Source: a virus. Taken from it: a stretch of 64,000 bases of DNA. The translations under genes and the position numbers were made by a program. The stretch is taken from the IMG/VR virus record IMGVR_UViG_3300037193_001172, positions 1 through 64,000 of that record. One strand, written 5' to 3'. This document shows, one piece after another, positions 5,791 to 32,779 of the stretch. Position 1 is the stretch's first letter. Each line of letters begins with the position of its first letter. Under the pieces are notes generated by a model that saw nothing but the letters and a program-made list of their open reading frames with translations, did no database searches and was not told where the DNA came from.

Positions 5791-6476
5791 ACTACAAACT
5801 GCAACTCACCGCTGCCGAAGCCGAGATCGTGCGCACGGCGCTGCTGCACTACAGCAACTTCGCGTATCAGAGGGCTGGCTACATCGCACAGAAGGGCGTA
5901 AAGCGTGCCGACGGGACATCGTACAGCGCTGCCGACGTGAGAGCCGCGCAGGACGCTGCAATGCAAGCCAACCTGATCCGCAGCAAGATCGTGCCGATGG
6001 ACCTGGAGGACGTGAAGATCGTCCCGCCTGGCCTGCCGCCGCTGCCGCTGCCCCGCTTCCACGGAACCGGCCCCGAGCAAGGTAGCTTCTGCGCGTTCCA
6101 GATGATCGACTACGCCAGCGCCGCCGTCGCGCACCTGCAAGCGCAGCTCAAGCTGTCCGAGGAAAACTTCAGACACATGCACGCATGCGCGAAGAGCTGG
6201 ATGGAGCGCAGCGACGCCAACCGTGAGCGAGCACAAGCAGCAGACTCGTACGAGAAGGCCATCGACAACTTGCGGCAGCGCCTGACGCACGCCGAGCAAG
6301 TCAAGGATAAGCTGCTCAACACGCTGGTCGGCATCCACATGCTGCTCGATCCACCGGTGCTGACCCTGGGCAGCGTGGCCTACCGCTTCAAGAATCCGAT
6401 GGCGGCCGAAGTGCTGCACGAGCTGTCGAACCGCATCCGTGCGATCCCGGACGCCATCGCCGAGGCCAAGCAATGA
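5787..6476 (+). CDS. Hypothetical protein with coiled coil, 229 aa
   Basis: GTG at 5787 in a GTGA overlap is preferred over an upstream in-frame start at 5736. Residues about 1-60 are helical, 65-95 are Pro-rich, and 120-185 form a long coiled coil (HLQAQLKLSEENFRHMHA and on). Possibly a structural or scaffolding early protein; unrecognised. Confidence 0.7.
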   Translation: MNYKLQLTAAEAEIVRTALLHYSNFAYQRAGYIAQKGVKRADGTSYSAADVRAAQDAAMQANLIRSKIVPMDLEDVKIVPPGLPPLPLPRFHGTGPEQGSFCAFQMIDYASAAVAHLQAQLKLSEENFRHMHACAKSWMERSDANRERAQAADSYEKAIDNLRQRLTHAEQVKDKLLNTLVGIHMLLDPPVLTLGSVAYRFKNPMAAEVLHELSNRIRAIPDAIAEAKQ

Positions 6477-6706
6477 GCGACCAGGCATTCCGGCTTTGCG
6501 CCACCCTGTTCCTGATCCTCACGGTGGGCTGCATCCTGCTCGGCCGGTTCACCGCTGTGCTCCGGCTGGAAGCGGCACAGCTGCGAGCCGCAGAAGCACA
6601 CTGCGCCAACAACGACGGCATCGTCCGCATCTGGGCTCGCACCAACGGCACGGTCACTGTCGAGTGCAACAACGGCATGAAAACTGACGTGAAGGAACCG
6701 CAATGA
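6473..6706 (+). CDS. Single-pass membrane protein, 77 aa
   Basis: ATGA overlap on both sides. Residues 7-30 (RLCATLFLILTVGCILLGRF) make one membrane segment, followed by a short helix and a compact beta tail containing two Cys. Probably anchored in the host inner membrane; function unknown. Confidence 0.68.
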   Translation: MSDQAFRLCATLFLILTVGCILLGRFTAVLRLEAAQLRAAEAHCANNDGIVRIWARTNGTVTVECNNGMKTDVKEPQ

Positions 6707-7185
6707 ACCGAGAGCAAGCCATCGCTGCCAAGCTATCCGTCGAGCAGTTCTCTGGCGTCGAGACGCCGCTGATCCTGGAGATCGTCAAGGCGACGGTTGC
6801 CATGCTCGCCGACGTGCCTCCGACAGCGGCACTGGAGCACGCCGCACGTGTCGTCTGCGAGGAAGCAGAAGAGGATTGGGACCGCCTCTCTGCTTTCGAG
6901 CGCGAGGTACTGATCGAGACGCAACGGAAGGCGCAGGCCCCGCTGGTCGCAGAGATCAAGCGGCTGGAGAGCATCATCGAAACCGATCGAGCCGCCGCAC
7001 CGGACCTGATCTTCATGCGCATGCTTGGCGCTATCCTGCTCGGCCAAGGGCGCCGGATCGAAGTTCTGGCGAGCGACGTGCTGGAAGTCTCGGTGCCCCA
7101 GCGTAACGTGACGTACAACATCACCGTCGAAGAGCGGCAGCAGCAGCACATGTTCATCGTGCGCCTGGTGGAGACTCGGACATGA
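6703..7185 (+). CDS. Hypothetical helical protein, 160 aa
   Basis: Mostly alpha-helical with a predicted coiled coil near residues 60-100 and a hydrophobic patch (FMRMLGAILLGQG) near 105. The C-terminus is beta-like. Coupled to its neighbours by ATGA overlaps. Unrecognised. Confidence 0.68.
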   Translation: MNREQAIAAKLSVEQFSGVETPLILEIVKATVAMLADVPPTAALEHAARVVCEEAEEDWDRLSAFEREVLIETQRKAQAPLVAEIKRLESIIETDRAAAPDLIFMRMLGAILLGQGRRIEVLASDVLEVSVPQRNVTYNITVEERQQQHMFIVRLVETRT

Positions 7186-7451
7186 ATAAGCCTGAAGGTT
7201 TTTACTCCACGTTCCGATTGGAATCCGAGGCGATCGACAACAGCACCGTCGCCACGGAAATCGGGAGGCAAGACCAAGGTGCCAGCAGCGCTGCCGCTGC
7301 GCTAAAGTGCGAGCGCGAATGCCACCTGTCGCAGCTGAAGGCGAACGAAGAGAGCGACCACGACGGCATCGTGGACATCTGGGAGCTTCGCCACGTCGCC
7401 AGCTACCGGATACACGTGCAGCAAAAGCTGGTCGTGGAGAAGCTGCCGTGA
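7182..7451 (+). CDS. Hypothetical protein, 89 aa
   Basis: Starts in an ATGA overlap. Small, mixed composition with two Cys (CERECH near residue 43). The stop overlaps the next GTG. No motif recognised. Confidence 0.62.
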   Translation: MNKPEGFYSTFRLESEAIDNSTVATEIGRQDQGASSAAAALKCERECHLSQLKANEESDHDGIVDIWELRHVASYRIHVQQKLVVEKLP

Positions 7452-7618
7452 AGCGACTGCGCTGTTACATCGGCCTGCATCACTATGCGTGGGTGTGGTC
7501 ATCCGCGATGAAAGTCAGCGGCGGGACCATGTGCATCTTTTGTGGCAAGTCGCCGGGCATCAATCACTACACGCCGGTCATCTTCGTGCAGGATCGCCAA
7601 GCGAGAAACAAGTCATGA
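7448..7618 (+). CDS. Small CxxC protein, 56 aa
   Basis: GTG start in a GTGA overlap. Contains one CxxC (CIFCGK near residue 31) and a Tyr/Trp-rich N-terminus; phages often carry such tiny zinc-binding proteins of unknown role. Ends in an ATGA overlap. Confidence 0.55.
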   Translation: MKRLRCYIGLHHYAWVWSSAMKVSGGTMCIFCGKSPGINHYTPVIFVQDRQARNKS

Positions 7619-7842
7619 GCATCCTCAAACGAGAGCGCGTGGAAGTCTGGGTGACGCGCAAAGGCAAGCCGTCCGGCACGCTGTTCGTCGGCGACCATCA
7701 CGTGCCGCTGCAAGTCGGGCAGACGATCAACGCTGCACGACAGGACTACACCATCAAGCAGATCGACTGGAGCATCGACAACAGCCTCGACGTGATGAAC
7801 TCGGTGCTGCGTCAGAACGTCTACGTGGAGCCCACCAAATGA
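7615..7842 (+). CDS. Hypothetical protein, 75 aa
   Basis: ATG at 7615 from the ATGA overlap. Predicted beta-rich (VEVWVTRKGKPSGTLFVGDHHVPLQVG), perhaps a small barrel, with a helical end. Function unknown. Confidence 0.65.
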   Translation: MSILKRERVEVWVTRKGKPSGTLFVGDHHVPLQVGQTINAARQDYTIKQIDWSIDNSLDVMNSVLRQNVYVEPTK

Positions 7843-8177
7843 AGCACGCACTCAAGATCAAGCTGCTCGTGGCGCTGGCGATCGCACCGACGGTCGACGC
7901 CGCCAACTACAAGGTGACGGTACTGAGCGCCGCCGATCACACGACGTACTTCTACTCGGGCTGCGAAGTCATCTTCGAGTCGAGCGTGCACCATGCGTTC
8001 GAGGCGGGCTGCGAGCAGCGCAAGATCGCCCCGCGTCCGTTCCAGGTCGACCCGAAGATCACGGACTACGCGCTCAAGATCAACGACCTGTTCTTCTACA
8101 ACTGCGAGCTGGTCGGTAGCTGGAGCGGCGATCAGCGGGGCAACCGGATCTTCCACTGCGGAGCGATACTGCCATGA
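7839..8177 (+). CDS. Secreted or periplasmic hypothetical protein, 112 aa
   Basis: The first 21 residues (basic start, hydrophobic core LLVALAIAPTV, then DA/AN) look like a cleavable signal peptide, so the mature product probably enters the periplasm. Four Cys in the remainder could form disulfides there. It sits among cytoplasmic-type early genes. A role at the cell envelope, such as exclusion of other phages, is possible but only inferred. Confidence 0.68.
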   Translation: MKHALKIKLLVALAIAPTVDAANYKVTVLSAADHTTYFYSGCEVIFESSVHHAFEAGCEQRKIAPRPFQVDPKITDYALKINDLFFYNCELVGSWSGDQRGNRIFHCGAILP

Positions 8178-8707
8178 GACTCACCGAAGACATCCGCCAC
8201 AACATCATCAACGCGGTGCTCGATCACCGCTTCAAGGCCGATGAAGAGACAGCCGAGGCGGCGATCCAGCGCACGTCGATGCTGCTGTATAACCGGCTGT
8301 TCCCAACCGTGGATTACTCTCGTGTTCCCGATGCGTTCCTGCGATTCGACAACGAAATGGAGGTCTACTGGAAACAGCAGACCTACCAGGACAAGCTGGA
8401 GCTAAGGCTGACGGACATGATGCTCGTACCACACAATGGTGTGTTCTCGGTGTGCGTCTCCGGCATCCCCGAAGGCGTGGCGCTGCGCAGGGCGCATGAT
8501 GCACGTGACAAGATCGAGAAGGAGCGCAACGCACTGAGGTTCAAGCTGCGCCAGATCCTGAAGCCAATGCACACGACAGCGCAGCTGAAGAAGAGCTGGC
8601 CTGACATCGCCGCGTTCGTGCCGAGCGAACCACCCCCGGTGAAGCAGAAGGCGCTGACCGTGGTGCCGAAGCAGCTGAGCAAAGAACTGCGGTTGCCGCC
8701 GTCATGA
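8174..8707 (+). CDS. Nmad5-like protein (nucleotide-modification associated), 177 aa
   Basis: The N-terminus (MRLTEDIRHNIINAVLDHRF), long helical centre and the LRQILKPMHTTAQLKKSWPDIAAFVP segment near residues 118-145 resemble the phage Nmad5 family, which was named for gene neighbourhoods with DNA-modification enzymes. No catalytic residues are known for that family and no hypermodification enzyme is visible in the window, so its role here is open. The assignment is by pattern memory and is moderate at best. Confidence 0.5.
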   Translation: MRLTEDIRHNIINAVLDHRFKADEETAEAAIQRTSMLLYNRLFPTVDYSRVPDAFLRFDNEMEVYWKQQTYQDKLELRLTDMMLVPHNGVFSVCVSGIPEGVALRRAHDARDKIEKERNALRFKLRQILKPMHTTAQLKKSWPDIAAFVPSEPPPVKQKALTVVPKQLSKELRLPPS

Positions 8708-8916
8708 GAATGCACCGCGTCGAGAGCACCAGCATCCGGTCGGTCGGCTACACCGCGCGATCGCAGACGCTCGGCATCCGCTTCGAGGATGGCTCGCTGT
8801 ATCACTACAGCGCGGTGCCTCGAAAGGTGTTCGACCGGTTGCTCCAGGCCCCGTCGAAGGGTAAGTTCGTTTCGCAAAACGTGGTCGACAAGTTCAAGTT
8901 CAAGGAGATCACATGA
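8704..8916 (+). CDS. KTSC-domain protein, 70 aa
   Basis: The whole protein fits the KTSC domain: V-E-S-T-S-I near residue 6, then a GYTARSQTLGIRF strand, DGSLYHYSAVP, and a helix ending in APSKGKFVSQNV. KTSC proteins are short, common in phages and bacteria, and often fused to nucleic-acid enzymes; their function is not settled. ATG at 8704 overlaps the previous stop; ATG at 8710 is an alternative. Confidence 0.8.
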   Translation: MRMHRVESTSIRSVGYTARSQTLGIRFEDGSLYHYSAVPRKVFDRLLQAPSKGKFVSQNVVDKFKFKEIT

Positions 8917-9428
8917 GCTGGCGACTGCTGGAACCTGGCGAGACGATCCTCCCTGGCGACGAGTGGTGGAGCATCGAGCATCACAACTGGCGCCCGATCT
9001 CCTGGTGCGACAAGGCGAAGCTGGGCGAGGGCGACAACCCGCATCGCCGTCGTATGCCGGAGCAGGTGACAGTCACCCTCGATAATCTCGACCTGACCGA
9101 CGACCAGATGAAGGCCATGCTCGTCTGCTCCCCGCCTCTTCAATCCGGACGCGATGCGCTATGGGAAGCGTTCGGCTTGGGCCGTGCCTCCTGGCTGACG
9201 ATGCCCCGCGTGTTCATGCACGCCATGCCAGACGCCTGGCAGACCCGCATGGCCGCACTGATACGCGAGTGGGATGCCGAGTGGAGCTACGACCGGGAGA
9301 GCCCGCTGCGCGGCCTGGGCATCCCGATCGTGCTGCAACGCAACGGTGGCAAGTTCACCCGCTGGCCGGAGTACGTGCTCAACTACCGCCATCCCGATCG
9401 CCATACCATCGAGCGGTGCCGACGGTGA
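8913..9428 (+). CDS. Hypothetical protein, 171 aa
   Basis: Begins in an ATGA overlap. The N-terminal 40 residues (GETILPGDEWWSIEHHNWRPIS) resemble a short segment recurrent in phage proteins that starts with a Trp-rich beta hairpin. The rest is mixed, with no enzyme motif. Function unknown. Confidence 0.68.
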   Translation: MSWRLLEPGETILPGDEWWSIEHHNWRPISWCDKAKLGEGDNPHRRRMPEQVTVTLDNLDLTDDQMKAMLVCSPPLQSGRDALWEAFGLGRASWLTMPRVFMHAMPDAWQTRMAALIREWDAEWSYDRESPLRGLGIPIVLQRNGGKFTRWPEYVLNYRHPDRHTIERCRR

Positions 9429-9577
9429 TCGAGCCTGACCGCCTCGACGCGATCGAGAAGCAGAACTTCGCGTTTGGCATGACCATCGCGGAGAAGAACG
9501 AGCTGGTGCGTGCGTACCGGCAACTGCACTTTACTCCCAAGGAGACCGAAGCATGCCCGCCCCCCGACCAGCTGTGA
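9425..9577 (+). CDS. Small hypothetical protein, 50 aa
   Basis: GTG start in a GTGA overlap with the upstream stop. One or two helices, acidic. The last 25 bases lie inside the next gene, whose ATG is at 9553. Weakly supported on its own, but consistent with the packing of this operon. Confidence 0.5.
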   Translation: MIEPDRLDAIEKQNFAFGMTIAEKNELVRAYRQLHFTPKETEACPPPDQL

Positions 9578-10047
9578 TCGACTTCAGCCTGTGCTTCAAG
9601 CCGCTGCCGTCACTCGTGTTCGACGCCGATGGCGTTGCTCACTTCACCTACGGCGCCGCCGTGCCCGATGCTCCGGCCGAGAGCGACAGCAACGTGGCAG
9701 CCAACACGCGCTTCGTGAAAGCGGCGCGTCTGCCGGCGATCCTGCCCGCCGTGTTCGATGCTCCTGTTGCAACGGACCAGCGCTGGCTCGTCGTGCCGTT
9801 CGCCGGTACGGTAACGGAAGTCACCATGCTGGCCGATGCCGTTGGCACCGTGGCCTTCAGCGTGTTCAAGGCGGCGTTCGCCGACTACCCGACAGGCACG
9901 CTCGCCGAAACCTTCCTGCTCGATGACTCGAACAAGAACCAGGTCACTTCAGCCATTGAAGTGGCCGCTGGCGACATCCTCATCGTCGAGCTCGACTCGG
10001 CAACGGCGCTCGATCAGTTCGCCGCCTACCTCAAGGTGCAACCGTGA
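9553..10047 (+). CDS. Virion-type beta-domain protein, 164 aa
   Basis: Residues about 45-165 (SNVAANTRFVKAARLPAI, then RWLVVPFAGTVTEVTMLADAVGTVAFSVFKAAFADYPTG) resemble a beta-sandwich module that recurs in phage tail-fibre and adhesion proteins, here standing alone. It overlaps the metallopeptidase gene downstream (GTGA). A structural-looking domain among plus-strand early genes is unexpected. It may belong with the next gene as a small secreted or virion-attached module. Confidence 0.62.
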   Translation: MPAPRPAVIDFSLCFKPLPSLVFDADGVAHFTYGAAVPDAPAESDSNVAANTRFVKAARLPAILPAVFDAPVATDQRWLVVPFAGTVTEVTMLADAVGTVAFSVFKAAFADYPTGTLAETFLLDDSNKNQVTSAIEVAAGDILIVELDSATALDQFAAYLKVQP

Positions 10048-10943
10048 TCGGCTTCCTCGTGTTGCTGTGCGGCTTCGGTAGCACCTACCAGCCGGCGTCG
10101 CAGGCCACGGTCGCGGCGCTCTACGGCAGCGAGATCCGACCGTACTGGTCGTACCAGTCGGCCAACCGCTTCACGCCGGCCTTCGACGTGCGCGACTGGC
10201 AGATCATCCAGGCGCAGACACAAGGCGAGTGGGTCAAGGCGGTGAACGATTGCGTGGCGGCGCACAACCCGCCGCTGGCCTCTGGCTACATCATCCAGGG
10301 CAGCCAGAACCTGCTCGACTACAGCGTGGCGCTGCCCGACATGCCGCTGCTCATCCAGGGCCAGCCGGTGCGCCTGCCGGTGGCGGTGATGCGCTCGACC
10401 GACATCATCAACCCGGCGTCGATCGCGCACGAAATGGGGCACATGCTCTGGCTCGGGCACACCAACAACAACGACGGCGACACCGACACCTACGACAACC
10501 CGTGGGATCTGATGTCTGGCGCGTTCACCTACGCAGTGCAGTACGGCCGCACGTGGACGTGGAAGCCCAAGAGCCTGGCCGCCGTGCATCGGCATCAGCT
10601 CGGCTGGATCGATCACGTCACTACGCTGACGGAAGGCACGCATCGCGTCGGGCTCATGCCGGTCGGCGTGTACGGCACGCAGCTGATCCAGGCCGGCGAG
10701 TACAGCCTCGAAGCCAAGCGCCGGTACGGCGGCGACGCTGCGCTGCCGGACGAGGGCGTCGTCGTCTACAAGGGCGTGCTGTTGCAGGACATCACCGACT
10801 ACTCCAGCGGCTCGGACTCGGTGCTGACCCCCGGCGAGACCGGCGTGTACGGGAACGTCACCATCACCGTGCACAGCCTGTACGACCTCACGGTGACTGT
10901 CTCCAACAACCTGTTCAACAGCGGCTTCGAGGAATCCCAATGA
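10044..10943 (+). CDS. Metzincin-like zinc metallopeptidase, 299 aa
   Basis: Residues 129-139 read HEMGHMLWLGH, a zinc site of the HExxHxxxxxH type. A Met-turn-like NPWDLMSG follows near residue 153-158, a layout seen in M6/M11-type peptidases. The usual Gly at motif position 8 is Trp136. The C-terminal 90 residues (YSLEAKRR...VLTPGETGVYGNVTITVHS) also resemble the beta part of M6-like enzymes. A short hydrophobic N-terminus (FLVLLCGF) may be an export signal. Predicted to cleave protein outside the cytoplasm or on the virion; the substrate is unknown. GTG start in a GTGA overlap. Confidence 0.75.
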   Translation: MIGFLVLLCGFGSTYQPASQATVAALYGSEIRPYWSYQSANRFTPAFDVRDWQIIQAQTQGEWVKAVNDCVAAHNPPLASGYIIQGSQNLLDYSVALPDMPLLIQGQPVRLPVAVMRSTDIINPASIAHEMGHMLWLGHTNNNDGDTDTYDNPWDLMSGAFTYAVQYGRTWTWKPKSLAAVHRHQLGWIDHVTTLTEGTHRVGLMPVGVYGTQLIQAGEYSLEAKRRYGGDAALPDEGVVVYKGVLLQDITDYSSGSDSVLTPGETGVYGNVTITVHSLYDLTVTVSNNLFNSGFEESQ

Positions 10944-11212
10944 GCATTGCACAGACCATCGCTTCCAACCTGCCGGCGATCCTGCAAGCCGCAGCCCCCA
11001 TCGTCGCTTCGCTTGGCGCCGTGGCAATCGCGTGGATTGCCCGGCGTGATGCGAAGAAGGCGACTGCCGACGTGGCGCAGACCAAGGCCGCCACCAACCG
11101 GCTGATCGACGTGAGCCATGCGCTCTACAACAAGACGTACAACGTCCGTCCGTTGAGCAAGGCGAGCGAACCGGTCAAGCCCTTCCCCACCATCCCGGAG
11201 AAACTGCAATGA
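10940..11212 (+). CDS. Membrane-anchored small protein, 90 aa
   Basis: Residues about 12-35 (LPAILQAAAPIVASLGAVAIAWIA) form a membrane segment, followed by a basic RRDAKK and a helical cytoplasmic tail. This looks like the small TM proteins encoded next to phage lysis or exclusion genes. It overlaps the peptidase gene by ATGA, so the two are probably co-translated. Function unknown. Confidence 0.65.
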   Translation: MSIAQTIASNLPAILQAAAPIVASLGAVAIAWIARRDAKKATADVAQTKAATNRLIDVSHALYNKTYNVRPLSKASEPVKPFPTIPEKLQ

Positions 11213-11400
11213 GCAAGCGCCACATCGCCTACAAGTCCCCGTACTGGGCCATCGTCTGCCCGAAGACCAAGCGCCCGCTGCGGAACATGCACGACGACCT
11301 GATGATCTATCCCACACGCAAGGAGGCGATGGAAGTGCTGAAGGGCTACCCGAGCGTCGCACTGCTGGCTCGTCTCTCGATCACCGGAGAGCTGGTGTGA
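11209..11400 (+). CDS. Small hypothetical protein, 63 aa
   Basis: ATGA overlap upstream, GTGA overlap downstream. Basic, with a short beta hairpin and a helix; no motif recognised. Confidence 0.62.
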   Translation: MSKRHIAYKSPYWAIVCPKTKRPLRNMHDDLMIYPTRKEAMEVLKGYPSVALLARLSITGELV

Positions 11401-11621
11401 GTCGAAAGCCCTGGCTGGTAGCGTCGGACGAGGCGGTGCGCGATCGCGTGCGCCGCCTCCCGTCCAATCCGATCACGCGCGAGGCCAAGCGCCTCGTGCG
11501 TGAGGACAACGACACGCTCGGGGCGATGAAGTGGCTGCACGAGCGCAACCTGGTCACGGCCGAGCACGTGGCAGCGCACGAGCGCTGGCTCCAGCAGCAG
11601 AGCGGAGAGGATCTGGCCTGA
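11397..11621 (+). CDS. Small hypothetical protein, 74 aa
   Basis: GTG start at 11397 in a GTGA overlap. Charged and helical throughout, without a recognisable domain. Its stop shares one base with the next start (TGATG). Confidence 0.62.
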   Translation: MSRKPWLVASDEAVRDRVRRLPSNPITREAKRLVREDNDTLGAMKWLHERNLVTAEHVAAHERWLQQQSGEDLA

Positions 11622-12025
11622 TGAACGCCACTACCGGTAGGCGGTACAAGGTGCAGCGCGTGCTGCACAAGCCCTTGACACCGTACGAGCGCGTCATGGC
11701 GAAGACCCAGCGCGAGGGCGACTGCTTGCTCTTCACCGGAGCAGGCAGTGGCTGCCGCTCGCCGGAGGGCGAGGATCACGGTAAGGTGCGCGTCCGGGAG
11801 AACGGTCGCAGCAAGACCCGGTTCGCGCACCGTATCGTGTACATCCACCATCATGGCGAGCCGCCCGAGGGGCTGGTCGTTCGACACCGGTGCCACCGCC
11901 GCCGGTGCGTGAACATCGAGCACCTGGTTCTCGGCACCGAGAGCGAGAACATGCAGGACATGATGGAAGCTGGCCGCGGCAAGGGCCAGTTCGGTTCAGC
12001 CTCAGATGATGACTGCCCCTTCTAG
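11621..12025 (+). CDS. HNH endonuclease-like protein, 134 aa
   Basis: C-terminal half carries an HNH_3-type motif: His70, then H89-x-C91...C96-x-N98-x-x-H101-L, then the GTESEN...DM ending typical of phage HNH homing-type nucleases. Such proteins nick or cut double-stranded DNA with one metal ion. The N-terminal 40 residues are basic. It is the last gene of the first early run and lies just before the 12,046 promoter, so it could be a free-standing homing enzyme or a functional phage gene. Confidence 0.75.
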   Translation: MNATTGRRYKVQRVLHKPLTPYERVMAKTQREGDCLLFTGAGSGCRSPEGEDHGKVRVRENGRSKTRFAHRIVYIHHHGEPPEGLVVRHRCHRRRCVNIEHLVLGTESENMQDMMEAGRGKGQFGSASDDDCPF

Positions 12026-12045
12026 TTGCACTGCATAACCCCTGC

Positions 12046-12074
12046 TTGACACGTGTGTGCCTACTAGGCACACT
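12046..12074 (+). promoter_or_regulatory. Predicted sigma70-type promoter of replication unit 1
   Basis: TTGACA at 12046-12051 is a perfect -35 box. With a 17-base spacer the -10 would be CACACT at 12069-12074, which is weak. The spacer is almost wholly occupied by a palindrome. The region sits in a 77-base gap ahead of the gene at 12103. A near-identical arrangement occurs at 15482. Confidence 0.65.
12055..12073. promoter_or_regulatory. 19-bp palindromic operator, copy 1
   Basis: Perfect inverted repeat GTGTGCCT-ACT-AGGCACAC lying between the -35 and -10 positions. The same arms with a different 3-base centre occur at 15490-15508, also within a TTGACA promoter. A symmetric site in a promoter spacer is the usual layout of a repressor operator. 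The ribbon-helix-helix gene at 12892 is the nearest candidate binder. Confidence 0.7.
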
Positions 12075-12102
12075 GACTTCCCCTCTCTACCCGGACTTGA
12101 CC

Positions 12103-12285
12103 ATGCTCGAAGACGCCATCGGACGTGCCGAGAAGGCACTGGATCACATCGACAAGCAGCGACGCGGCGGTGAGTCGCCCTCCCAGGGCCGCAATCCGCA
12201 AGGCTCATCCTCGCTGGTGTCGCTCTCCTACTCCGACCTCAAGTTCCTGGTCGACGCAGCAAAGGGGGCGCCATGTACTCCGTAG
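12103..12285 (+). CDS. Small hypothetical protein, 60 aa
   Basis: First gene behind the 12,046 promoter; the ATG at 12103 is chosen because an earlier in-frame start at 12046 lies inside the promoter. Helical N-terminus, Ser/Gly-rich middle, helical end. No motif. Overlaps the next gene by 13 bases. Confidence 0.62.
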   Translation: MLEDAIGRAEKALDHIDKQRRGGESPSQGRNPQGSSSLVSLSYSDLKFLVDAAKGAPCTP

Positions 12286-12578
12286 TCGACTTCAGCGCCG
12301 TACCGCAGAAGACCGACCGCGCCGAAGCGGTCGACCTCAAACGAGAGCTGGTGCTCGCCAACCCTGACGCCGACTGGCAACTGGTCAGCACCATCCCTGA
12401 TGTCGAGCCGGACAACAATGCGCTCGAAAGGCTCTACGCTCTTTGCCACCAGCTGCTGACCGTGAGCAAGATCAATCCGGTCAAGCTGGAAATGAAGCTG
12501 ACCAACATGCTCGGCGAAGAGACGACGTACACCGCCGCCCGCATCATGATCGATGCACGGGCCAAGCTCGATGAATAA
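12273..12578 (+). CDS. Hypothetical protein, 101 aa
   Basis: Mostly helical (residues 20-100) with a short beta start. Located in the operator-controlled unit upstream of the primase-helicase. Unrecognised. Confidence 0.65.
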   Translation: MYSVVDFSAVPQKTDRAEAVDLKRELVLANPDADWQLVSTIPDVEPDNNALERLYALCHQLLTVSKINPVKLEMKLTNMLGEETTYTAARIMIDARAKLDE

Positions 12579-12648
12579 GTTTTTCGCCGCCGTGCTCATT
12601 GCCGTGGCGGTCATCGCGGCCGCCATCAAATCACTCTTCGAGGACTGA
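12571..12648 (+). CDS. Tiny membrane peptide, 25 aa
   Basis: The 25 residues are almost a single membrane helix (FFAAVLIAVAVIAAAI) with a short polar tail KSLFED. Its ATG overlaps the previous stop by eight bases, and the next gene starts five bases later. The composition and placement favour a real small gene over chance. Confidence 0.5.
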   Translation: MNKFFAAVLIAVAVIAAAIKSLFED

Positions 12649-12652
12649 TCTC

Positions 12653-12895
12653 GTGGCTCGTATTTTCGAGAATGACATACCTGCTGTTATCGCCTCCCTG
12701 CAAATGCTCTTGGCCGCGAACAACACGCCGGTCATCAGCGGGCTGAGCGAGGATGAAGTAGCACTGCTGCGCGAACACCGTCGCAAGATCCAGATCGACG
12801 AGCTGTTCAAGAAAGGCATCGAGATCGCGCCCCCGCGGAAGATCGAGCCGTCGCCGCTAGGCATCGTAGAGCAGCCGTCGGCGTGCTCACCGTGA
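12653..12895 (+). CDS. Hypothetical protein, 80 aa
   Basis: GTG at 12653 is the likely start; an in-frame ATG at 12599 would run through the preceding peptide gene. Helical with a Pro-rich C-terminus. The stop overlaps the GTG of the ribbon-helix-helix gene. Confidence 0.58.
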   Translation: MARIFENDIPAVIASLQMLLAANNTPVISGLSEDEVALLREHRRKIQIDELFKKGIEIAPPRKIEPSPLGIVEQPSACSP

Positions 12896-13023
12896 GCAGC
12901 ATGACCCGCAAGCACGTGTTCCTGCCGGCGACGCTCGTGCGCAAGCTGCAAGTCGAGGCGCGCAAGAAAGGCATCGGCCTGTCGGAGCTGATCCGAAAGA
13001 TCCTGCTGTCCTACTTCGACTAG
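12892..13023 (+). CDS. Ribbon-helix-helix DNA-binding protein, 43 aa
   Basis: A minimal Arc/CopG-type fold: a short strand (KHVFLP), a first helix (TLVRKLQVEARKKG) and a second helix (LSELIRKILLSYF). Such proteins dimerise, insert the paired strand into the major groove and bind palindromic operators, usually as repressors. It lies in the unit headed by the palindromic promoter at 12,046, so negative autoregulation of this unit and of the 15,482 unit is a reasonable inference. The GTG at 12892 gives a GTGA overlap; ATG at 12901 would give a 40-residue version. Confidence 0.72.
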   Translation: MSSMTRKHVFLPATLVRKLQVEARKKGIGLSELIRKILLSYFD

Positions 13024-13032
13024 CGCGCAGCC

Positions 13033-15240
13033 ATGCCTTACGGCGCAACCCTGGCGGAGTGGGAGGCTTTCGCGTCTCTCGACTTGCCCAACCTGCTGCC
13101 ATACGTGGCAGATCCGGATGTGCCTACGCATCCGAGCAGCAAGGTCAAGGCCGGGCAGAAGATCCCTGGCTTCGTTTACGAAGGCGCGCGCGGCTACGGC
13201 GTGATGGGCTTCCGTGCCTGGAACGACCCGGCCAAGATCACGCGCTCAGTCGACGACTGGAAGAAGGATTCACGTCTGGGCATCTGCTTGCGCATGATGA
13301 CCATCAAGGCGTTCGACATCGATGTGCCGAACCTCGAAGCGGCGATGGAGATCGAGGCGTACATCCGCGAGTTCTTCGGCGTCGATGGCATGATGTTGCC
13401 GGTGCGCACCAGGCAAGGCACCGGCAAGCGCGCGATGATCTACCGTCTGCGCGAGCCCGAGGCGATCAGCCTGCATCGAGTGCACATCGATCGCAACCTG
13501 GGCATGGTCGAGTTCCTGGGCGACAAGCAACACCTGTGCGTCGCTGGCGGCCACCCGGAAGGCGGCCGGTACGAGTGGGACGATGGCCTGCCGACCAAGC
13601 TATCGCAGATCCCCGAGCTCGATCTGGATCAGGTGCTGGAGCTGGCGCGACAACTCGCCGACGACTTCGCACCGAAGGGTTGGCACCGCGAGTGGCGGCA
13701 CAAGACCGAGTACACGCCGCGCTCGTACAAGGCCGATGCGTTCGACGATGACCCGGCCGTCAAGCACATCATCGACACCGAATGGTTCATCGACTTCAGC
13801 GTCAACGGCGGCATCTACGTGCGCTGCCCGTGGACGCACTACCACTCCCGCGACTCGGGGCCGACGGAAGCAGAGTTCTTCCCCGCTGGCAGCAACGGCC
13901 TGGAGAATCCTGGCTTCAAGTGCCTGCACGGGCACAGCCTGTGCCCCACCGGTCCCTTCAGCCCCACCGGTACGGAATTCCTCAACGCGATCGGCTTCAC
14001 TGCGATCGAAGTCACCAAAGAATTCGAGATCGTCGAGGCGCCCAAAGACAACCCAGCGGCGACACGACCGAAGTTCAGTTACAAGGGCAAGACGAATCGC
14101 ATCGAGGCCGTGCTGCCCAACGTGGTCAGCATGCTGCACTGGACCGAAGGCACGCACTACACCGTGCGGTACGACAGCTTCAAAGACACGATCCTATACC
14201 GCAACGGCAGCGGCGGCTGGAAGCCGATCATCGACGAGACCTACACCGAGATCCAGCTGCGCTTCATGGCGCTCGGCATTGAAAGCACCCTGTCGGAAGA
14301 TCTCGTCAAGAAGGGCCTGCGCTTCGTCGCCAAGGATCTTCAGATGGACTCGGCCAAGGAGTGGCTGAACTCGCTGCAATGGGACGGCGTGCCGCGCATC
14401 GAGAATTTCCACCGGCGCGTGCTGAAGCTGCCGAACGATCCTTACTACGTTGCCGTGTGCCGCTATATGTGGACCGCCCTCGCCGGCCGAGTGCTGGAGC
14501 CAGGCTGCAAGGCGGACATGGTACCGATCCTCACCGGGGCGCAGGGCCTGCGCAAGTCATCGCTGGTAGAGGCGCTTGCGCCGAGCCGCGACGAGTACAC
14601 CGTCGTCAGCCTGAATGATCGGGAAGAGAACCTGGCACGCCAGCTGCGCGGCCGCATGGTGCTGGAGTGGGACGAGCTGCGCGGCCTGATGACGCGCGAC
14701 GCCGAGAGCATCAAGGGTTGGGTGTCGCGTCGCAAGGATGACTGGATTCCGAAGTTCAAGGAGTTCGCCACGTCGCTGGAGCGCCGCTTCCTGCTCATCG
14801 GCACCGCCAACCCGCAGCGCTTCCTCAACGATCCGACCGGACACCGGCGCTGGCTGCCGATGTTCATCACCGAAGTGATCGATGTCGACTACGTGACCGA
14901 CAACCGCGAGCAGCTGTGGGCCGAGGCTGCCGTGATGTACCACCGCCACCTGGCCGCCACCAACGGCCGCAGCGGCGTGATGTACGAGGAAGCCGAGCAG
15001 CTGGCGAAAGCCGCGCAGCGCCGGGCCACCGTGCGCGATCCGTGGGTCGATGCGCTCCAGCAGTGGGCCGATGCCGAAGACCGCAACGCCGGTACGTCGT
15101 CGCTCGACATCCTGCATCAAGCGTGCAGCATCGGCACGTCGCAAATCACCTACGGCACGCAGGATCGGTTGATCCGCGCGCTCACCTACCTGGGCTGGGA
15201 TCAGAACGAAGCCGGCCTTTGGTTCCCCCCGCTCGCATAA
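13033..15240 (+). CDS. VirE-family primase-helicase, 735 aa
   Basis: The C-terminal half is a P-loop ATPase of the VirE/D5-like group: Walker A near residues 502-509 (GAQGLRKSS, K508), Walker B LEWDEL with D547/E548, and a TANPQRFLNDPTGHRRWLP sensor region after it. The N-terminal third (YGVMGFRAWNDPAK..., AFDIDVPN) reads as a prim-pol-like primase domain, and Cys residues near 245-300 may bind zinc. Expected to prime and unwind DNA at the replication fork, working with the family A polymerase encoded 3 kb downstream. Usual size for such fusions. A 9-base gap separates it from the previous gene. Confidence 0.85.
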   Translation: MPYGATLAEWEAFASLDLPNLLPYVADPDVPTHPSSKVKAGQKIPGFVYEGARGYGVMGFRAWNDPAKITRSVDDWKKDSRLGICLRMMTIKAFDIDVPNLEAAMEIEAYIREFFGVDGMMLPVRTRQGTGKRAMIYRLREPEAISLHRVHIDRNLGMVEFLGDKQHLCVAGGHPEGGRYEWDDGLPTKLSQIPELDLDQVLELARQLADDFAPKGWHREWRHKTEYTPRSYKADAFDDDPAVKHIIDTEWFIDFSVNGGIYVRCPWTHYHSRDSGPTEAEFFPAGSNGLENPGFKCLHGHSLCPTGPFSPTGTEFLNAIGFTAIEVTKEFEIVEAPKDNPAATRPKFSYKGKTNRIEAVLPNVVSMLHWTEGTHYTVRYDSFKDTILYRNGSGGWKPIIDETYTEIQLRFMALGIESTLSEDLVKKGLRFVAKDLQMDSAKEWLNSLQWDGVPRIENFHRRVLKLPNDPYYVAVCRYMWTALAGRVLEPGCKADMVPILTGAQGLRKSSLVEALAPSRDEYTVVSLNDREENLARQLRGRMVLEWDELRGLMTRDAESIKGWVSRRKDDWIPKFKEFATSLERRFLLIGTANPQRFLNDPTGHRRWLPMFITEVIDVDYVTDNREQLWAEAAVMYHRHLAATNGRSGVMYEEAEQLAKAAQRRATVRDPWVDALQQWADAEDRNAGTSSLDILHQACSIGTSQITYGTQDRLIRALTYLGWDQNEAGLWFPPLA

Positions 15241-24370: not shown

Positions 24371-24520
24371 CTACCTGATCGCGAAGTGCCCCAGCAGCAG
24401 GGCGAGGATGACGAGGATCTGCGACACGCTCATCAGCAGCTGCCAGCGCGAGCTGCCAGCGGCCGCCATGATGGCGAGGACGAGAGCGACGATGAGCAGC
24501 AAGAGGGTGATGGTAATCAC
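24371..24520 (-). CDS. Two-pass membrane protein, holin-like size, 49 aa
   Basis: GTG start overlaps the stop of the giant gene (GTGA). Two hydrophobic helices (ITLLLLIVALVLAIMAAA and LLMSVSQILVILALLLGHFA) joined by a short GSSRWQ loop. The size and topology would suit a small holin or other membrane peptide, but it lies far from the lysozyme and spanin genes, so this is only one possibility. Confidence 0.6.
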   Translation of the reverse strand: MITITLLLLIVALVLAIMAAAGSSRWQLLMSVSQILVILALLLGHFAIR

Positions 24521-27500
24521 GGCGTACTCCTTTGGTCACGCGGCCGCCAGGCCGAGGGGATCTCGGTGCGCACCGCTGGTTTGCCAGTCAGCACGCGGTA
24601 CTTGTACAGAGCCAGGTACTGCTGCTGCCGGCGTGCTTCTTCGAGCTGTGCGTACGCCTGCGCTGCGGCGGCGTCGCTCAGCGTGCCTTTGTTCTTTTTT
24701 CGCGTGATCGAGGCTTTGTCAGAGCGCAAGTCCTGATCGATTGCATCCCACCGCTCACGCCAAGCGACGAGCGCACCGTCGAACTCTTCTCCGGCATCTT
24801 TCGCCTTGAGCTGATCGTCGGTCGTGTCGATGGCCTTCTTGAATTGGAAGTAGCGAGCATACTCAGAAGGCTCTGCATAGAAGCGATCAGTGAACGCGTC
24901 CCCAAATTCCTTCCCCTTGTGCGGCTTCTCGACCATGCCGGTCAGCACGAGATTGAAGATGCCGGTCGGATAGCCGCGCACCAACGTGCGCACTTCCTCC
25001 GGTGCGAAGTCGGGGCCGCCAGCCTGGCGGATAAACTGCGCGACTTCCTTGTAGAAGGGCGGCGAGAACTTGCCGAACTGCTCCGACCGGTAGCGCGTCG
25101 TGTCTTCCCACTTGTCCTCGACGACCTTGCTGCCCCACGGCGCCGTGTTGAATCCGACAGCGAACATCGGCTTGGCCCACGACGGCGCGAACAGCGTGAA
25201 GAGCGCCTGCACCGGCTTCTCGGTCCAGTCGATGTCGCTGTCTTCGAGCGGCGAGAAGATCGGCACCACGCTGCCAGACGCCACGCGACCGGCTGCTTCG
25301 CCGACCGTCTGCTCGTCGGTGGCGATGCCGACCGATGCGCGCGCGACGCCGTTCGCCAGGCGCGTCAGGCCGTACGCGAGCGGGATCTTCAGGATGCCGT
25401 CGCCGATCGGGATCAGCATGTAGTTGTTCTGGAGGAACGGTGATTCTTGGTCGAGCTTGTTGCCGCCCTCGTCGTCATCGGCCAGCGAGCGGAAGAACGC
25501 CTGCGCCGCAGCGAAGACCAAGGTGTAGCCGACCAGTCGCTTCCAGCCGATGCGATTGATCGAACCGTCGCGATGGAACAGCGCACCGAGCGAGTTGGCT
25601 GCACCGGTGAACGTCGGTCCGGAGAACGCATAGAGCGCGCGCAGGATCGGCGCCTCCGTGCCTTTCTTGCGGAAGTTCATCAGATCCAGGCTGCCGGCGG
25701 CCGCATCCTTCGGGCTCATGCCGTTCTCACGCATCGACATATACGCGGCGAACGCCGGTGCGATGTCGAACGGCTTGTTGTAGATCGACACCAGGTCGCC
25801 CAGCTTGCGCAGTGCCGCGCGCGGACCGCCCCGCTCGGCGGCGATGTCGGCGATGAGCTTCTTGCGCTCGGCGCTGAAGGTCGCGCTGTACAGGCTCGTG
25901 CCACCGGCCGAAATGAACTCTTCGAGCATGTCGGCTTCGTACGACGCGTTCGGCTTCAGGCCCAGGCCCCACTGCCAGAGCGTCTTGGTCAGCGGGAAGT
26001 TGCGACCAGGCTTCGTCAGGATGCCGAGCATGCCGTTCGCGATCTTGCTGGCCTCGATCTCGTTGCCGCTGGCGTCGATGTAGGTGCGCGTACGGATGAT
26101 CTCGCTGCGCTCCCACGAGTCGCGGAAGAAGTTGAACGGGGCGAAGAACGGATTGAGCTGCGTCGCGCCGTACGCGTAAGCGCGCGTCAGCCGCCCGATG
26201 CCCTCGACGAACGGGTTGTCCTGGAAGCGGATGTTGGTGCCGCGCACCGCTTCGAGGATCTTCTTATCGGCGAACTCGTACGCGACCACGGTGCCGCCGC
26301 GCCGCACGACGACGGAATCCGGACCGACGCGGTTGGCCCGCTGCGCACGCACGCCGCCGCGGCTGAGCACCGTGCGGCGGATGCCGGCTGCCTTGCGCTG
26401 GTCCGGCGTCATCGAGCGGTAGGCGTTGACGAGCGCGGTCTGGAAGTCGCGCCAGCCGGCGTAGCTCGCGCTCTTGTTGATCGCCGCCATCGTCGTGCTG
26501 ATCGCGTCGTCCGGGAACGACGAGCGGCCTTCGATGCGCCGGTCCTGCGCCGTGTTGGGCGCGCGGCCACCGGTGTAGAACAGCTCGGCATCGATCGGCG
26601 CGTTGGGGTCGCCCGTCAGCGGCACGTACTTCGAGCGCACCAGCTGCATCACGCGCTCGCGCTGCGCCTCCAGCGCGCGCAGGCTGTTCGCGTTCGCTGC
26701 ATCGGCCGCGAGCGCCAGCTGGCGCAGCGTCACCAGGTCGGCGCGGATCGCCGGATTCTCCAGGAACCTGGTCGCGGTCGACGGCGCCGTCTTGCCGGTC
26801 TCGATGTCGATCGCCAGGCGCCAGGCATTGAGGTCGTACACGTGCGCAGCAGCAGCCTGCAAGTCGGCCAGGTCGATGCGGTTCTCGATCTCGCTGGAGA
26901 GCAGGGCAGCCTGCGCGTTGTTCATGCTGCCGGCCAGCTTGCCGGGGTGGCGCACGTTCGCCGTCTGCGGGTTGTTGATCGCCTGCTGCAACGCGATCAG
27001 CTCGGCCGTGGCCTCGCGCACCGCACGCGGCGTCGGGTTGCCGCGCAGCAGCGCCTGGAGCTCGCGCTGAGCTCGACGCAGCAGGTACGCGTTGCGGTCC
27101 GGGATGCTCTGGGCCGTGATCCAGTTGCCGACCCAATCCTTGGCGGTCTCTTCGGTGATCTTGTACTTCGAGACGATGCGCGCGAGCTGCTTGTTGAGCG
27201 CTTGCGCACCGACGAGCGACGCCTTGCTCAGCAGCTCGTTGCGCACGCCAGGTGCGCGGTACAGCGCGGACAGGAAGCCCTGGGTTTGCAGCGGGTCGAT
27301 CGGCAGCGACTGAATCCAGCGCTTCACGACGATCAGGCTGTCGGCCAGCTTCTCGTTGAGCCAGTCGGCGAAGCCGCCACTCTGCTGGCGCAGCGCCTGC
27401 ACGGCCTGTTGCTGCTGGGCCGGCGTGCCCTGGAGGATCGCCTGGCCGTTCTGCACCACGGCACGGATCGGCGTCGCCGCCGGTGCGCGCTGGCCGCTCT

Positions 27501-30500
27501 GCACGTTCGCCAGCTGCTGCGCGTACGTGCGGCGCTGGCTGATGCTGGTCGGACCGGTCAGGTTCTCGGCGCCCTGGGCGACGACATCCTCCGGTGTCGG
27601 CAGCGGCGTCGCCCCCGGCACCGGGGTCGTGATCGACGCAGTTGGCCCTTCCGTGCTCTCGTCGAGCGACAGCACGTCACTGAATTCCGGGATCTGGTTG
27701 ATGCGCTCGATGAGCTCGTTCTGCCGCGACGAGCCTTGCAGCCGGTTGCTGATGGCGATCAGCGAGACGACGCTGAAGCTGGCAGCCTTTTCGTCGTAGT
27801 TCCGCCGACGACCGGTGAGCTCACGCATTTCCTCGAACGTCATCCGCTGACCGTTGAGCAAGAACGCGTCGAGTTGCGGCGTCAACGTGACGTTGGCGGC
27901 ATCCGCGGAAGTCAGGCCGCGCGATACGACCCGTTGTACGGTGCGCAGCAACCCTGCAAAGCCTACCTCGTGCCGCACCCCGTACGGCGCGGAAGAAATC
28001 AAACCCAACCGGTCGACCGCGTTGGTCAGGTCGCCAGTGATCGTGCCCCACTTCAACGCTGCACGCAGCCGGTTGACCGGCAGACGCCGCACGTTGATTT
28101 CACTCAGGCTGCCTGGGCCGTAGGTAAACCGGACTCGCGCCGATACCGCTGCGCCGTAGGCGATGTCGTAGAACACACCGCCTTCACCAGAGCCGATATC
28201 GAGACCGGATGTAACAGCGCTGACTTCTCCGCCGTTGGGGTACAAGCTGCCGCTGTTGCCATTCCGGAAACGAATACGAGTGTCGCCGGCTGCCATAGGC
28301 ATAAGCCCGTGCGGGTTCGGTCCTGCTACAACAGCGTCGATGCCGTCGCGTACGGCTTGCAGGAAATGACGCTGCCGCTGTGCCGCTGTGGTGTTCTCTG
28401 AGATCAACGTGCCCAGCGCACCAGCGGCTTGCACGCCGCGGAAACGCCCAGTGCGCGACGCGCCGAGTCGCCGCAACGGAGCCGAGTCGGCTCTGTCCGG
28501 AGTCGCAGCCGCAGTCGTTGCAGCCGCAGTATTCACCGGCACGCGGTTTACCGACGGGATGCGCACCCGCTCGGTGTTCGTGCTGGTGCGGCCGACGGCC
28601 TCGCGCACAGCGCGGTAGACCGCCAGCGCGCTGTCGTTGCGCTGTGCCGTGGTGAAGCCGAGGCTGGTCAGCCACGCAACGAAGTCGTTGTGCCGGGCCG
28701 AATCGTTCGAGCGGCCAGGGCGCACGATGTAGAGCGCACGATCCACGTCGTTGTCGAACGTGATCTGATGGCTGTTCCACCGAGGGTTGGAACGGTTGGC
28801 CCATGCCGGTAGCACAGCAGTGTAGACCGGCGCGGCAGTCGGCGTCGGTGCAGCAGGTGCAACAGACACGCCGAACCGCTGACGCAATTCGGTGATGTTG
28901 ATGAGCCCTTGATTGAAATAGCTTAGAGCTGTCCGCTCCCCCGGAGTGAACCCCGGTGGGTTTGCAGCTTCAATCGCCAGCAATTCTTCTCCGCTCAGGC
29001 TTCCGTTCGGGTCGCGCAAGCGGTTCCGCACTTGGTCTGGCGTTAGCGCAGCCGGTGCAGCAGGGGTCGGTGTCGCACCAGAGTCCAGATCGAACGTGCC
29101 AGCGGTATTCGTCATGAAATGCGCTGCGGTTTCCTGCAACACATTGGCGAGCGAAGTAGGCGCCCCCGGCGATACCAGGTTCATCAGGTAATCGACGAGC
29201 CGCGTGATTGCTTCGAGCACGGTGCTGCGTTGACCGGACTGATTCAAGAGTCGGATGGTCGACAGAGCGCGCTTCGCCGCCGGGCTCAGCGTACCCAGCG
29301 GCGTCTGCGCCGCAAGCGCCAGGAACTCGGGGCGCACCAGCTCGGCGTACATTTCCGCGATGTTGTCGTTGCCGTAGGTGTTGCGCCTTACCTGCCGCGC
29401 TTGCGCCCGGAGCTTTTCGTGCAGCTCATTCACCAACGCGAGGATGTCTTGCGAGATCCTGGCCCCTCCACGCGCCAGCCGGATCGTCCTGTTTAGCCCG
29501 CGCAAGGTCAGCGCGTGCATCAACTCGTGCGCGACTGCGTTGAGTGACGTGCGCGGGTTAAACGTGACAGTGTGGGTGTCAGCGTTGTACGTGCCACGCG
29601 GCACGTTGCCGTTGGCATCCGGCTGCGGGTTCGGATCAAACACCACCCGCGGAAGCGGGATGCCGGCGCGAGTGAAGGCGCCGCTAATCCAACGCAGCGA
29701 GTTGGTGTTGCCATCCGAGACCGGTGCCGACGCCAGGATTGTCTGAAGGTCCGCGCCCCGCCGGATGTCGACGGCCCATTGCGCGTGCGGATTGGCGGCA
29801 AGCGACTGTTCGATGCCAAGCGTTCGCACGAAGGTGCGGATCGCCGGCTCGTTGCTGTGTTGCGCGGCCTGCTGCACTTCGAGCGGTGCCGCGCGCAGGA
29901 TGCGTGCAGCGTCTTGCAGCTCGGCGAAGGAAGGCTCGGTGGCCGCTGCCATGCGCTGACGCAACGGTGCGAGCTGCGCTTCGAGCGCCGCGATCCCTGC
30001 GCTCACATCGACATCCGGTTCGGTTCCGGTCAACGCTTCGGCTTCCTGAAGCGTCGCGGCCTCGCGCTGCCCCGCGGCCGTGCGCACCGAGAAGCGGCCG
30101 TCGGCCAGCGGCGTGATCCGGTTGGCGTCCTGCGGCAGCATCCGGGTCAGCCGCGCCTGCACCGCCCGCGGCACCTGGGCGGCGTCGGCCGGTGGCGCCG
30201 AAGGCGTAGCCGGGGGCTCGGCGAGGCCGATCAGCTCCGGCTCGGGCTGAGCCGTGCCCTGCTGTGCCGACTCCAGCGCCGTCTCGGCGTCGACCACGGC
30301 CTGCGCGGCAGCGGCAACGGCATCCGGGTCTCCGCCCTCCAGCGCCGTGTTCAGCGCGGTCGTCGCTGCCTGGAACCCGGCCTGAGCCGTCGCCACGTCC
30401 ACGGGCGGGGCCGCAGGGCTCGCCGGAGCCGCCGGGGTGGACGGTGGCGGCGACTCGGCAGCCGGAGCGGCTGGAGGCGTGCCCAGGACTTCCGCCGCGA

Positions 30501-31933: not shown

Positions 31934-32779
31934 TCAGGTCATGCTCAGGTAGCGGTTGATGAGCGTGTCGATCTCGGGCGGGATCGCGATGCGCGGCGTC
32001 GGCGTCTCGTTGAAGAACGACGCGAGGGCCTTCTGCCGCTCGGCTTCCATGTCGTCGTCAGCGAGCTGCTGCGCCTGCTCCTGATCCCACCAGGCCGGCG
32101 GCTCGTTCTGCGCCGCCAGCACGGCATCTTGCCACGGCACGCTCTGTGCGCTCGCAGCGGCCGCGGGCGGAGCACTGCGCGAGAGCGACGGCACCGTGAG
32201 CCCGGTGCTCGGTGCAGCAGCCGCCGGTGCGCTCGACGGCGCCACGCGCGCGGCCGAGAGCAGGGATGACACTACGTCTTTGGCAGGTGCTTTTGCTGCG
32301 GCCACGGTCGGAACCTCGGGTAGCGGTTTGCCAGTGAGCGCGGCGAGTGTCTTGTCGACGAACGCTTGGCTCTTCTTCGGTTGGTTGTACGGGCTGCTCG
32401 GCAGGCTCGCCCATTCCTTGCCGAGCTTGCCGATCGCTGACTTGAAGTCGCCCTTCAGCACGGCATCGAGCGCACCACGCTCGGCGATGCGATTGATCGC
32501 GGCCAGATCCTGCGACACCGGGCCGAAGTCCGTGAGCCCGAGCTTCTTCGCCTGCTCGTCCCACGTGCCGGCCAGAAACTGGTAGCGCCCGGCGGCCGTC
32601 GTCTGGCCGCCCTTGAACTTGTGCTTCTCGCGCGGATGATCGTCGAGCGTCTTCAACAGCCCGCCACCGAAGGCGGTGTTGTAGTTGTTCTTCGCCGTCC
32701 CTTCCGTCTCTGCGATCAGGTTGAGGATCGTCTGGACGTTGGGGTTTGCGCGCAGCGCGAGCAGTTCATCGCGTGTCAT
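31934..32779 (-). CDS. Lambda R-like lytic transglycosylase domain protein, 281 aa
   Basis: Residues 15-150 follow the lambda endolysin R (GH104) pattern closely: AETEGT with likely catalytic Glu26, GGGLLKTLDDHPR, TTAAGRYQF, SQDLAAINRIAERGAL and EWASLPSSPY. The remaining 130 residues are Ala/Pro/Ser-rich. Placed among ejection proteins and directly before the giant gene (two-base spacing), it more likely opens peptidoglycan for DNA entry than lyses the cell. A separate GH24 lysozyme serves lysis. ATGA overlap with the upstream gene. Confidence 0.88.
   Translation of the reverse strand: MTRDELLALRANPNVQTILNLIAETEGTAKNNYNTAFGGGLLKTLDDHPREKHKFKGGQTTAAGRYQFLAGTWDEQAKKLGLTDFGPVSQDLAAINRIAERGALDAVLKGDFKSAIGKLGKEWASLPSSPYNQPKKSQAFVDKTLAALTGKPLPEVPTVAAAKAPAKDVVSSLLSAARVAPSSAPAAAAPSTGLTVPSLSRSAPPAAAASAQSVPWQDAVLAAQNEPPAWWDQEQAQQLADDDMEAERQKALASFFNETPTPRIAIPPEIDTLINRYLSMT

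Follow-up and report, generated by a model that had tools for sequence, protein, structure and literature searches.

A predicted M6-type zinc metallopeptidase encoded in a phage genome as a lone catalytic domain lacking pro-region and signal peptide

The DNA under study comes from the IMG/VR virus record IMGVR_UViG_3300037193_001172. The window, meaning the whole stretch of DNA that was analysed, represents positions 1-64,000 of this 64,739-base record, in which no terminal repeats were found. The plus strand of the window contains an open reading frame, 10044-10943, which opens with GTG and encodes 299 amino acids. The sequence AAGG stands just ahead of the start codon. The gene shares four bases with each of its neighbours: at the front the GTG runs into the stop of the preceding gene (GTGA), and at the end the stop codon runs into the ATG that opens the next gene (ATGA). 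Its GC content at codon positions 1, 2 and 3 is 0.61, 0.43 and 0.93, respectively. The high third-position value and the coupling to the neighbours indicate that the frame is a real gene. The gene, its parts and its surroundings are as follows.

9553..10047, plus strand: gene of 164 aa, coupled to the peptidase from upstream, with a weak match to virion proteins (phrog_35197 4e-5, phrog_10330 0.0032, GTGA overlap)
10044..10943, plus strand: predicted M6-type zinc metallopeptidase, a catalytic domain that lacks both signal peptide and pro-region (translation, TIGR03296, alignment A2, model, InhA2 fold match)
10047..10076, plus strand: residues 2-11 (IGFLVLLCGF), a hydrophobic start that represents strand 1 and not a signal peptide (model, alignment, hydropathy)
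10428..10460, plus strand: zinc-binding motif HEMGHMLWLGH, residues 129-139 (invariant residues in 31 aligned sequences)
10491..10520, plus strand: YDNPWDLMSG, residues 150-159, with the Met-turn M157 (alignment of 31 sequences)
10911..10940, plus strand: C-terminal tail LFNSGFEESQ (alignment and C-terminal listing; relatives have LFRNGFE, IFADGFE)
10940..11212, plus strand: gene of 90 aa, coupled on the downstream side, with a single predicted membrane segment (ATGA overlap, hydropathy 1.98 at residue 12, phrog_9090 membrane protein 0.01)
11531-12025, plus strand: HNH endonuclease (phrog_1872, 7e-26)

The first-pass annotation of this DNA had read HEMGHMLWLGH and a downstream NPWDLMSG in the frame, and the translation bears this out, including the numbering of E130. 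The metzincin zinc motif is given as HExxHxxG/NxxH/D (PMC12237041). Compared with this pattern, the phage peptidase possesses all the ligands and the Glu (H129, E130, H133 and H139), and bears W for G/N at position 8, as in clear relatives. The Met-turn of metzincins is present as M157 in NPWDLMSG. Across 31 aligned sequences, H129, E130, G132, H133, H139, Y150, D151, D155, C9 and C70 are invariant, and M157 and S158 are kept in at least 90%. Absence of the zinc residues from relatives had been named beforehand as the observation that would speak against the assignment; they are invariant in all relatives.

The Trp at position 8 had also been singled out, as a departure from the usual Gly, and this did not survive comparison. 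The position is variable among the relatives, and the 57 distinct motif strings from the fetched loci carry G in 36 cases, W in 7 (the phage included), H in 7, A in 2, F in 2, and S, E and Q in one each. The share of W is inflated, because some loci were fetched with a pattern requiring W; no such bias attaches to the searches that gave H, A, F, S, E and Q. In two Acidimicrobiia proteins (L145, L149), two M6-like domains stand in tandem, and this position is W in the first domain and G in the second. Trp as a special feature was rejected, position 8 being relaxed in the clade. Since relatives carry Trp too, it is no sign of inactivity of the phage peptidase.

The NCBIfam profile TIGR03296 (M6 domain) matches residues 126-242 with an E-value of 1.1e-11 and 45.2 bits, which is below its curated cut-off of 110.8 bits. 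The bacterial relatives also score under this cut-off, and for both reasons the label “M6-type” is used here and not “M6 member”. Matches in Pfam are weak and below cut-off (Reprolysin_4, 0.003; M43, 0.036), and Pfam Peptidase_M6 does not match the protein. Against PDB sequences, phmmer with the peptidase returned weak fragilysin matches and nothing else, and the profiles A1 and A2 returned just short zinc-motif matches. A single-sequence AlphaFold model (pLDDT 35) was useless, and a model built on the 31 aligned sequences was used instead, having a pTM of 0.80 and a mean pLDDT of 77.7, with low confidence at residues 165-170 and 249-251. This model contains strands at residues 2-11, 45-49, 53-55, 83-91 and 95-117, and helices at 20-38, 124-134 (the active-site helix) and 180-185. 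The five-stranded sheet and the backing, active-site and C-terminal helices of the metzincin core are all present, as judged from the number and position of these elements in the model.

A Foldseek search of the PDB with this model ranked chains of the M6 InhA2 zymogen (4yu6/4yu5) in the first four places, with E-values from 3.6e-6 to 7.8e-6. The best of these extends over 346 columns, with a TM-score of about 0.5 and an rmsd of 7-9 A. The next fold match stands at 1.2e-3, and for the other metzincins, among them ADAMs and fragilysin, E-values start at about 1e-3 and get weaker; the closest fold is that of a solved M6 enzyme. No viral fold model matched at 1e-3. The fold search had been proposed as a check on the first reading, with the lack of a metzincin fold as the adverse outcome, and the model is a metzincin fold. 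The M6-like C-terminal beta part was recovered as well, as the TIGR03296 match ends just short of the end of the profile (285 of 286) and a beta region is seen in the model. The predicted product is confirmed, at the level of sequence and model, as a metzincin of M6 type with a complete zinc site and Met-turn, and the resemblance goes well beyond what chance would give. It shares with M6 immune inhibitor A and InhA2 (4yu6) the metzincin core, the zinc motif, the Met-turn, the helix after it and the beta part at the C-terminus. The secreted zymogen InhA2 has several domains and about 700 aa, whereas the phage peptidase is a lone catalytic domain.

Bacterial relatives were gathered by a pattern scan of genome contigs and by searches of whole genomes. 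Acidimicrobiia supplied some of them and a single order of Pseudomonadota the others (33 of the 299 genomes of the order), and they align along the full length of the phage peptidase. Identity to the phage peptidase is 21-29% overall in alignment A2, 29-33% to Acidimicrobiia in alignment A1, and 46-54% around the zinc site for three Pseudomonadota proteins (L215-L217). The secreted M6-like proteases of the Pseudomonadota order (L215-L244), together with those of Acidimicrobiia (L145, L148, L149 and L154), have a catalytic domain homologous to that of the phage throughout, and share with it the loop NNxDGDxDxYDNPWD(V/L)MS. The Pseudomonadota relatives carry a signal peptide, a pro-region and a CCAWGG-like segment, whereas the phage peptidase is without all three; their motif has G at position 8, where the phage has W. 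Compared by eye, the phage tail LFNSGFEESQ is similar to the FxxGF(E/D) ending seen in about 20 of 30 relatives. A kept tail would be expected if the gene was captured from a secreted-protease gene and its front was then lost. On the secreted proteases of the order (L215, L224, L226, L236 and others), the (I/L)FxxGF(E/D) tail has a sorting- or anchoring-like look.

In the tree, the terminal branch of the phage peptidase measures 2.39 changes per column. With a branch this long, either the capture is old or evolution has been fast, and the tree did not place the phage peptidase inside a single bacterial clade. As the source, the Pseudomonadota group would be favoured by three shared features, namely the loop, the tail and a PK(H/S) stretch that follows the Met-turn. 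The phage gene is a singleton in the collections searched, and a strongly diverged, putative capture from a bacterial secreted-protease family. In an attempt at host inference, a phage internal virion protein gave one weak partial match in the order of genome G405.

The term “secreted-type peptidase”, used in the first-pass annotation, is right for the relatives and does not fit the phage protein. About 30 relatives in the Pseudomonadota order have a signal peptide, as judged by eye, and a pro-region of about 85-100 residues before strand 1. In the 30 relatives examined, strand 1 lies at open-frame position 104 or later; in the phage it begins at residue 2, with neither a signal peptide nor a pro-region ahead of the catalytic domain. 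By analogy with metzincins in general, the pro-region of the relatives presumably keeps the enzyme inactive. A hidden signal peptide upstream of the GTG was considered and rejected, because the reading frame there offers 28 codons without ATG, GTG or TTG and without a hydrophobic segment. Residues 2-12 are hydrophobic, and the peptidase might be exported after all by an uncleaved or atypical N-terminal signal (MIGFLVLLCGFGS). This is hardly to be expected, as the N-terminus has no basic n-region and a maximum 19-residue hydropathy of just 1.28, and residues 2-11 are modelled as a strand with a pLDDT of 84 and align with PWVSILCKF, strand 1 of the mature domains of relatives. A target at the host surface, as was first suggested, would need an exit route such as lysis or virion packaging, since the phage protein is without a signal peptide.

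No relative of the peptidase was found in 50,697 phage records or in 72,556 plasmids. None was found in IMG/VR either, where the search patterns were derived from a single sequence and from two alignments; such scans need short conserved stretches and may miss relatives. Close phage relatives were sought via the peptidase, the VirE-type primase and a neighbouring gene, and none was found. Simple metzincin motifs are frequent in the viral contigs of IMG/VR. Other metzincins there (e.g., L042, L087, L136 and L011) present HExxHxx(G/W)xxH as in the phage peptidase, but none scores better than E 2.5e-5 against the M6 alignment, and several have signal-peptide-like starts or other domains. Locus L011 (7274-10017, reverse strand), and also L008 and L014, contain two consecutive metzincin-like genes with signal-peptide-like starts, one bearing HEIGHALWMLH.

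A secreted metzincin of a Listeria prophage has been studied together with its TIMP-like partner (PMC8235301), and nothing closer appeared in a search of the open-access literature on phage M6 or phage-encoded metalloproteases. Both that system and the present gene represent metzincins as phage accessory genes. A Sec signal peptide and a paired TIMP-like lipoprotein characterise the Listeria protein, which acts at the cell surface and whose gene often adjoins the holin-lysin genes (PMC8235301). The present peptidase differs from this mtz-tim arrangement in having no signal peptide, nor does it have an inhibitor lipoprotein beside it, as judged by the absence of lipoprotein-like starts in its neighbours. 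As a clan, metzincins have been seen in phages before; in the collections searched, only this record yielded an M6-type form that lacks its front part.

In the block from 6473 to 11621, most genes share a four-base overlap with the following gene. The plus strand, which carries the peptidase, also carries the HNH endonuclease, a VirE-type primase/helicase, an exonuclease, an annealing protein, a DNA polymerase and an SNF2-type helicase. The minus strand carries the terminases, structural genes, endolysin and spanin. Of the earlier phrase “early small-gene operon”, the setting among small genes that share their strand with the replication module is confirmed, while early expression of the peptidase is suggested only by gene direction and position. 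A scan of 7000-14000 found no sigma-70-like promoter, and none of nine genes from the block matched the PADLOC defence-system library. The HNH endonuclease, about 0.7 kb downstream of the peptidase, is a possible agent of gene movement. Another gene of the same overlapping block (7839-8177, plus strand) encodes 112 aa with a signal-peptide-like start (MKHALKIKLLVALAIAPTVDA/AN) and several cysteines. It has no PHROG match, and its product is likely a periplasmic phage protein.

The two adjoining genes agree with their first description as a virion-style beta-domain gene and a membrane-protein gene. The downstream one has its single membrane segment, and the upstream one matches phrog_35197 and, less well, phrog_10330 (“virion structural protein”); the latter gene has no tblastn match in phages. 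Its translational coupling to the peptidase gives some ground for a virion component, in which the peptidase would be packaged or attached with the upstream beta-rich protein and would act at the onset of infection, either on the cell surface or once ejected. The virion matches of the upstream gene are weak, though, and the virion genes stand in a separate block on the opposite strand, which makes this reading improbable.

A captured gene of this kind may also be idle or decaying, a moron near an HNH endonuclease with no role in infection. The gene is a singleton with a very long terminal branch, the phage, plasmid and viral-contig collections searched contain no relative, and the endonuclease is close. 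On the other hand, the frame, the codon-position signature (GC3 0.93) and the coupling are intact, and every zinc-site residue is kept despite the large divergence, which argues for long selection. We regard an idle gene as very improbable.

The reading that we prefer, with a probability of roughly 0.48 on sequence and model, is a captured, stand-alone M6-type zinc endopeptidase that would need no maturation in the cytoplasm and would cut host or phage proteins during infection. The phage would have captured a secreted-protease gene like those present in one order of Pseudomonadota, and the signal peptide and pro-region would have been lost, so that the domain begins directly at strand 1. The protein would then be synthesised in the host cytoplasm from the operon on the replication-gene strand. 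Cytoplasmic synthesis in a ready form is proposed because the presumably inhibitory pro-region and the export signal are both absent. At least one host or phage protein would be cleaved inside the infected cell. The product is most likely a predicted zinc endopeptidase that would be active on synthesis inside the host.

Several points stand against a cytoplasmic enzyme. Metzincins of this branch are extracellular, a catalytic domain without its pro-region may fold poorly, and the phage form is represented by one sequence. C9, C70 and the Asp-rich, possibly Ca-binding loop ahead of the Met-turn are retained, and from the sequence an extracellular or oxidised setting would fit at least as well as the cytoplasm. 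The same residues, and the secreted nature of the bacterial relatives, agree with the main rival, namely that the peptidase is made in the cytoplasm, set free when endolysin and spanin lyse the cell, and then breaks down surface layers, extracellular matrix or secreted host proteins, aiding the spread of progeny. A signal peptide would be unnecessary for such release, since the phage encodes its own endolysin and spanin. The gene lies on the replication-gene strand, however, outside the lysis and structural cluster, and no binding domain is attached to the peptidase; we consider release at lysis unlikely.

The significance of the gene depends on which of these holds. Few phage-made proteases are known that target the host instead of the phage's own capsid. 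The substrate of an intracellular peptidase would point to a process that it pays to destroy in the host. A metzincin of one domain that lacks export signal and pro-region would also be a natural test of whether enzymes that are normally extracellular and controlled by a pro-region can function in the cytoplasm of bacteria. The stronger form of the preferred reading, a secreted zymogen turned into an always-on intracellular protease that cuts host proteins, would be an M6-type means of host takeover or counter-defence of which we found no description, and we advance it only tentatively. A peptidase that acts only once the cell has lysed would be an exoprotease made by the phage, which is less surprising and still uncommon.

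Two further genes of the minus strand deserve mention. The structural block contains a 2471-aa open frame (24517-31932) with no PHROG match. The gene at 31934-32779, in the virion block, is endolysin- or tail-lysozyme-like and matches the phage “metallo-endopeptidase” family phrog_28672 (8e-19), and its product is a second candidate peptidase of this phage.
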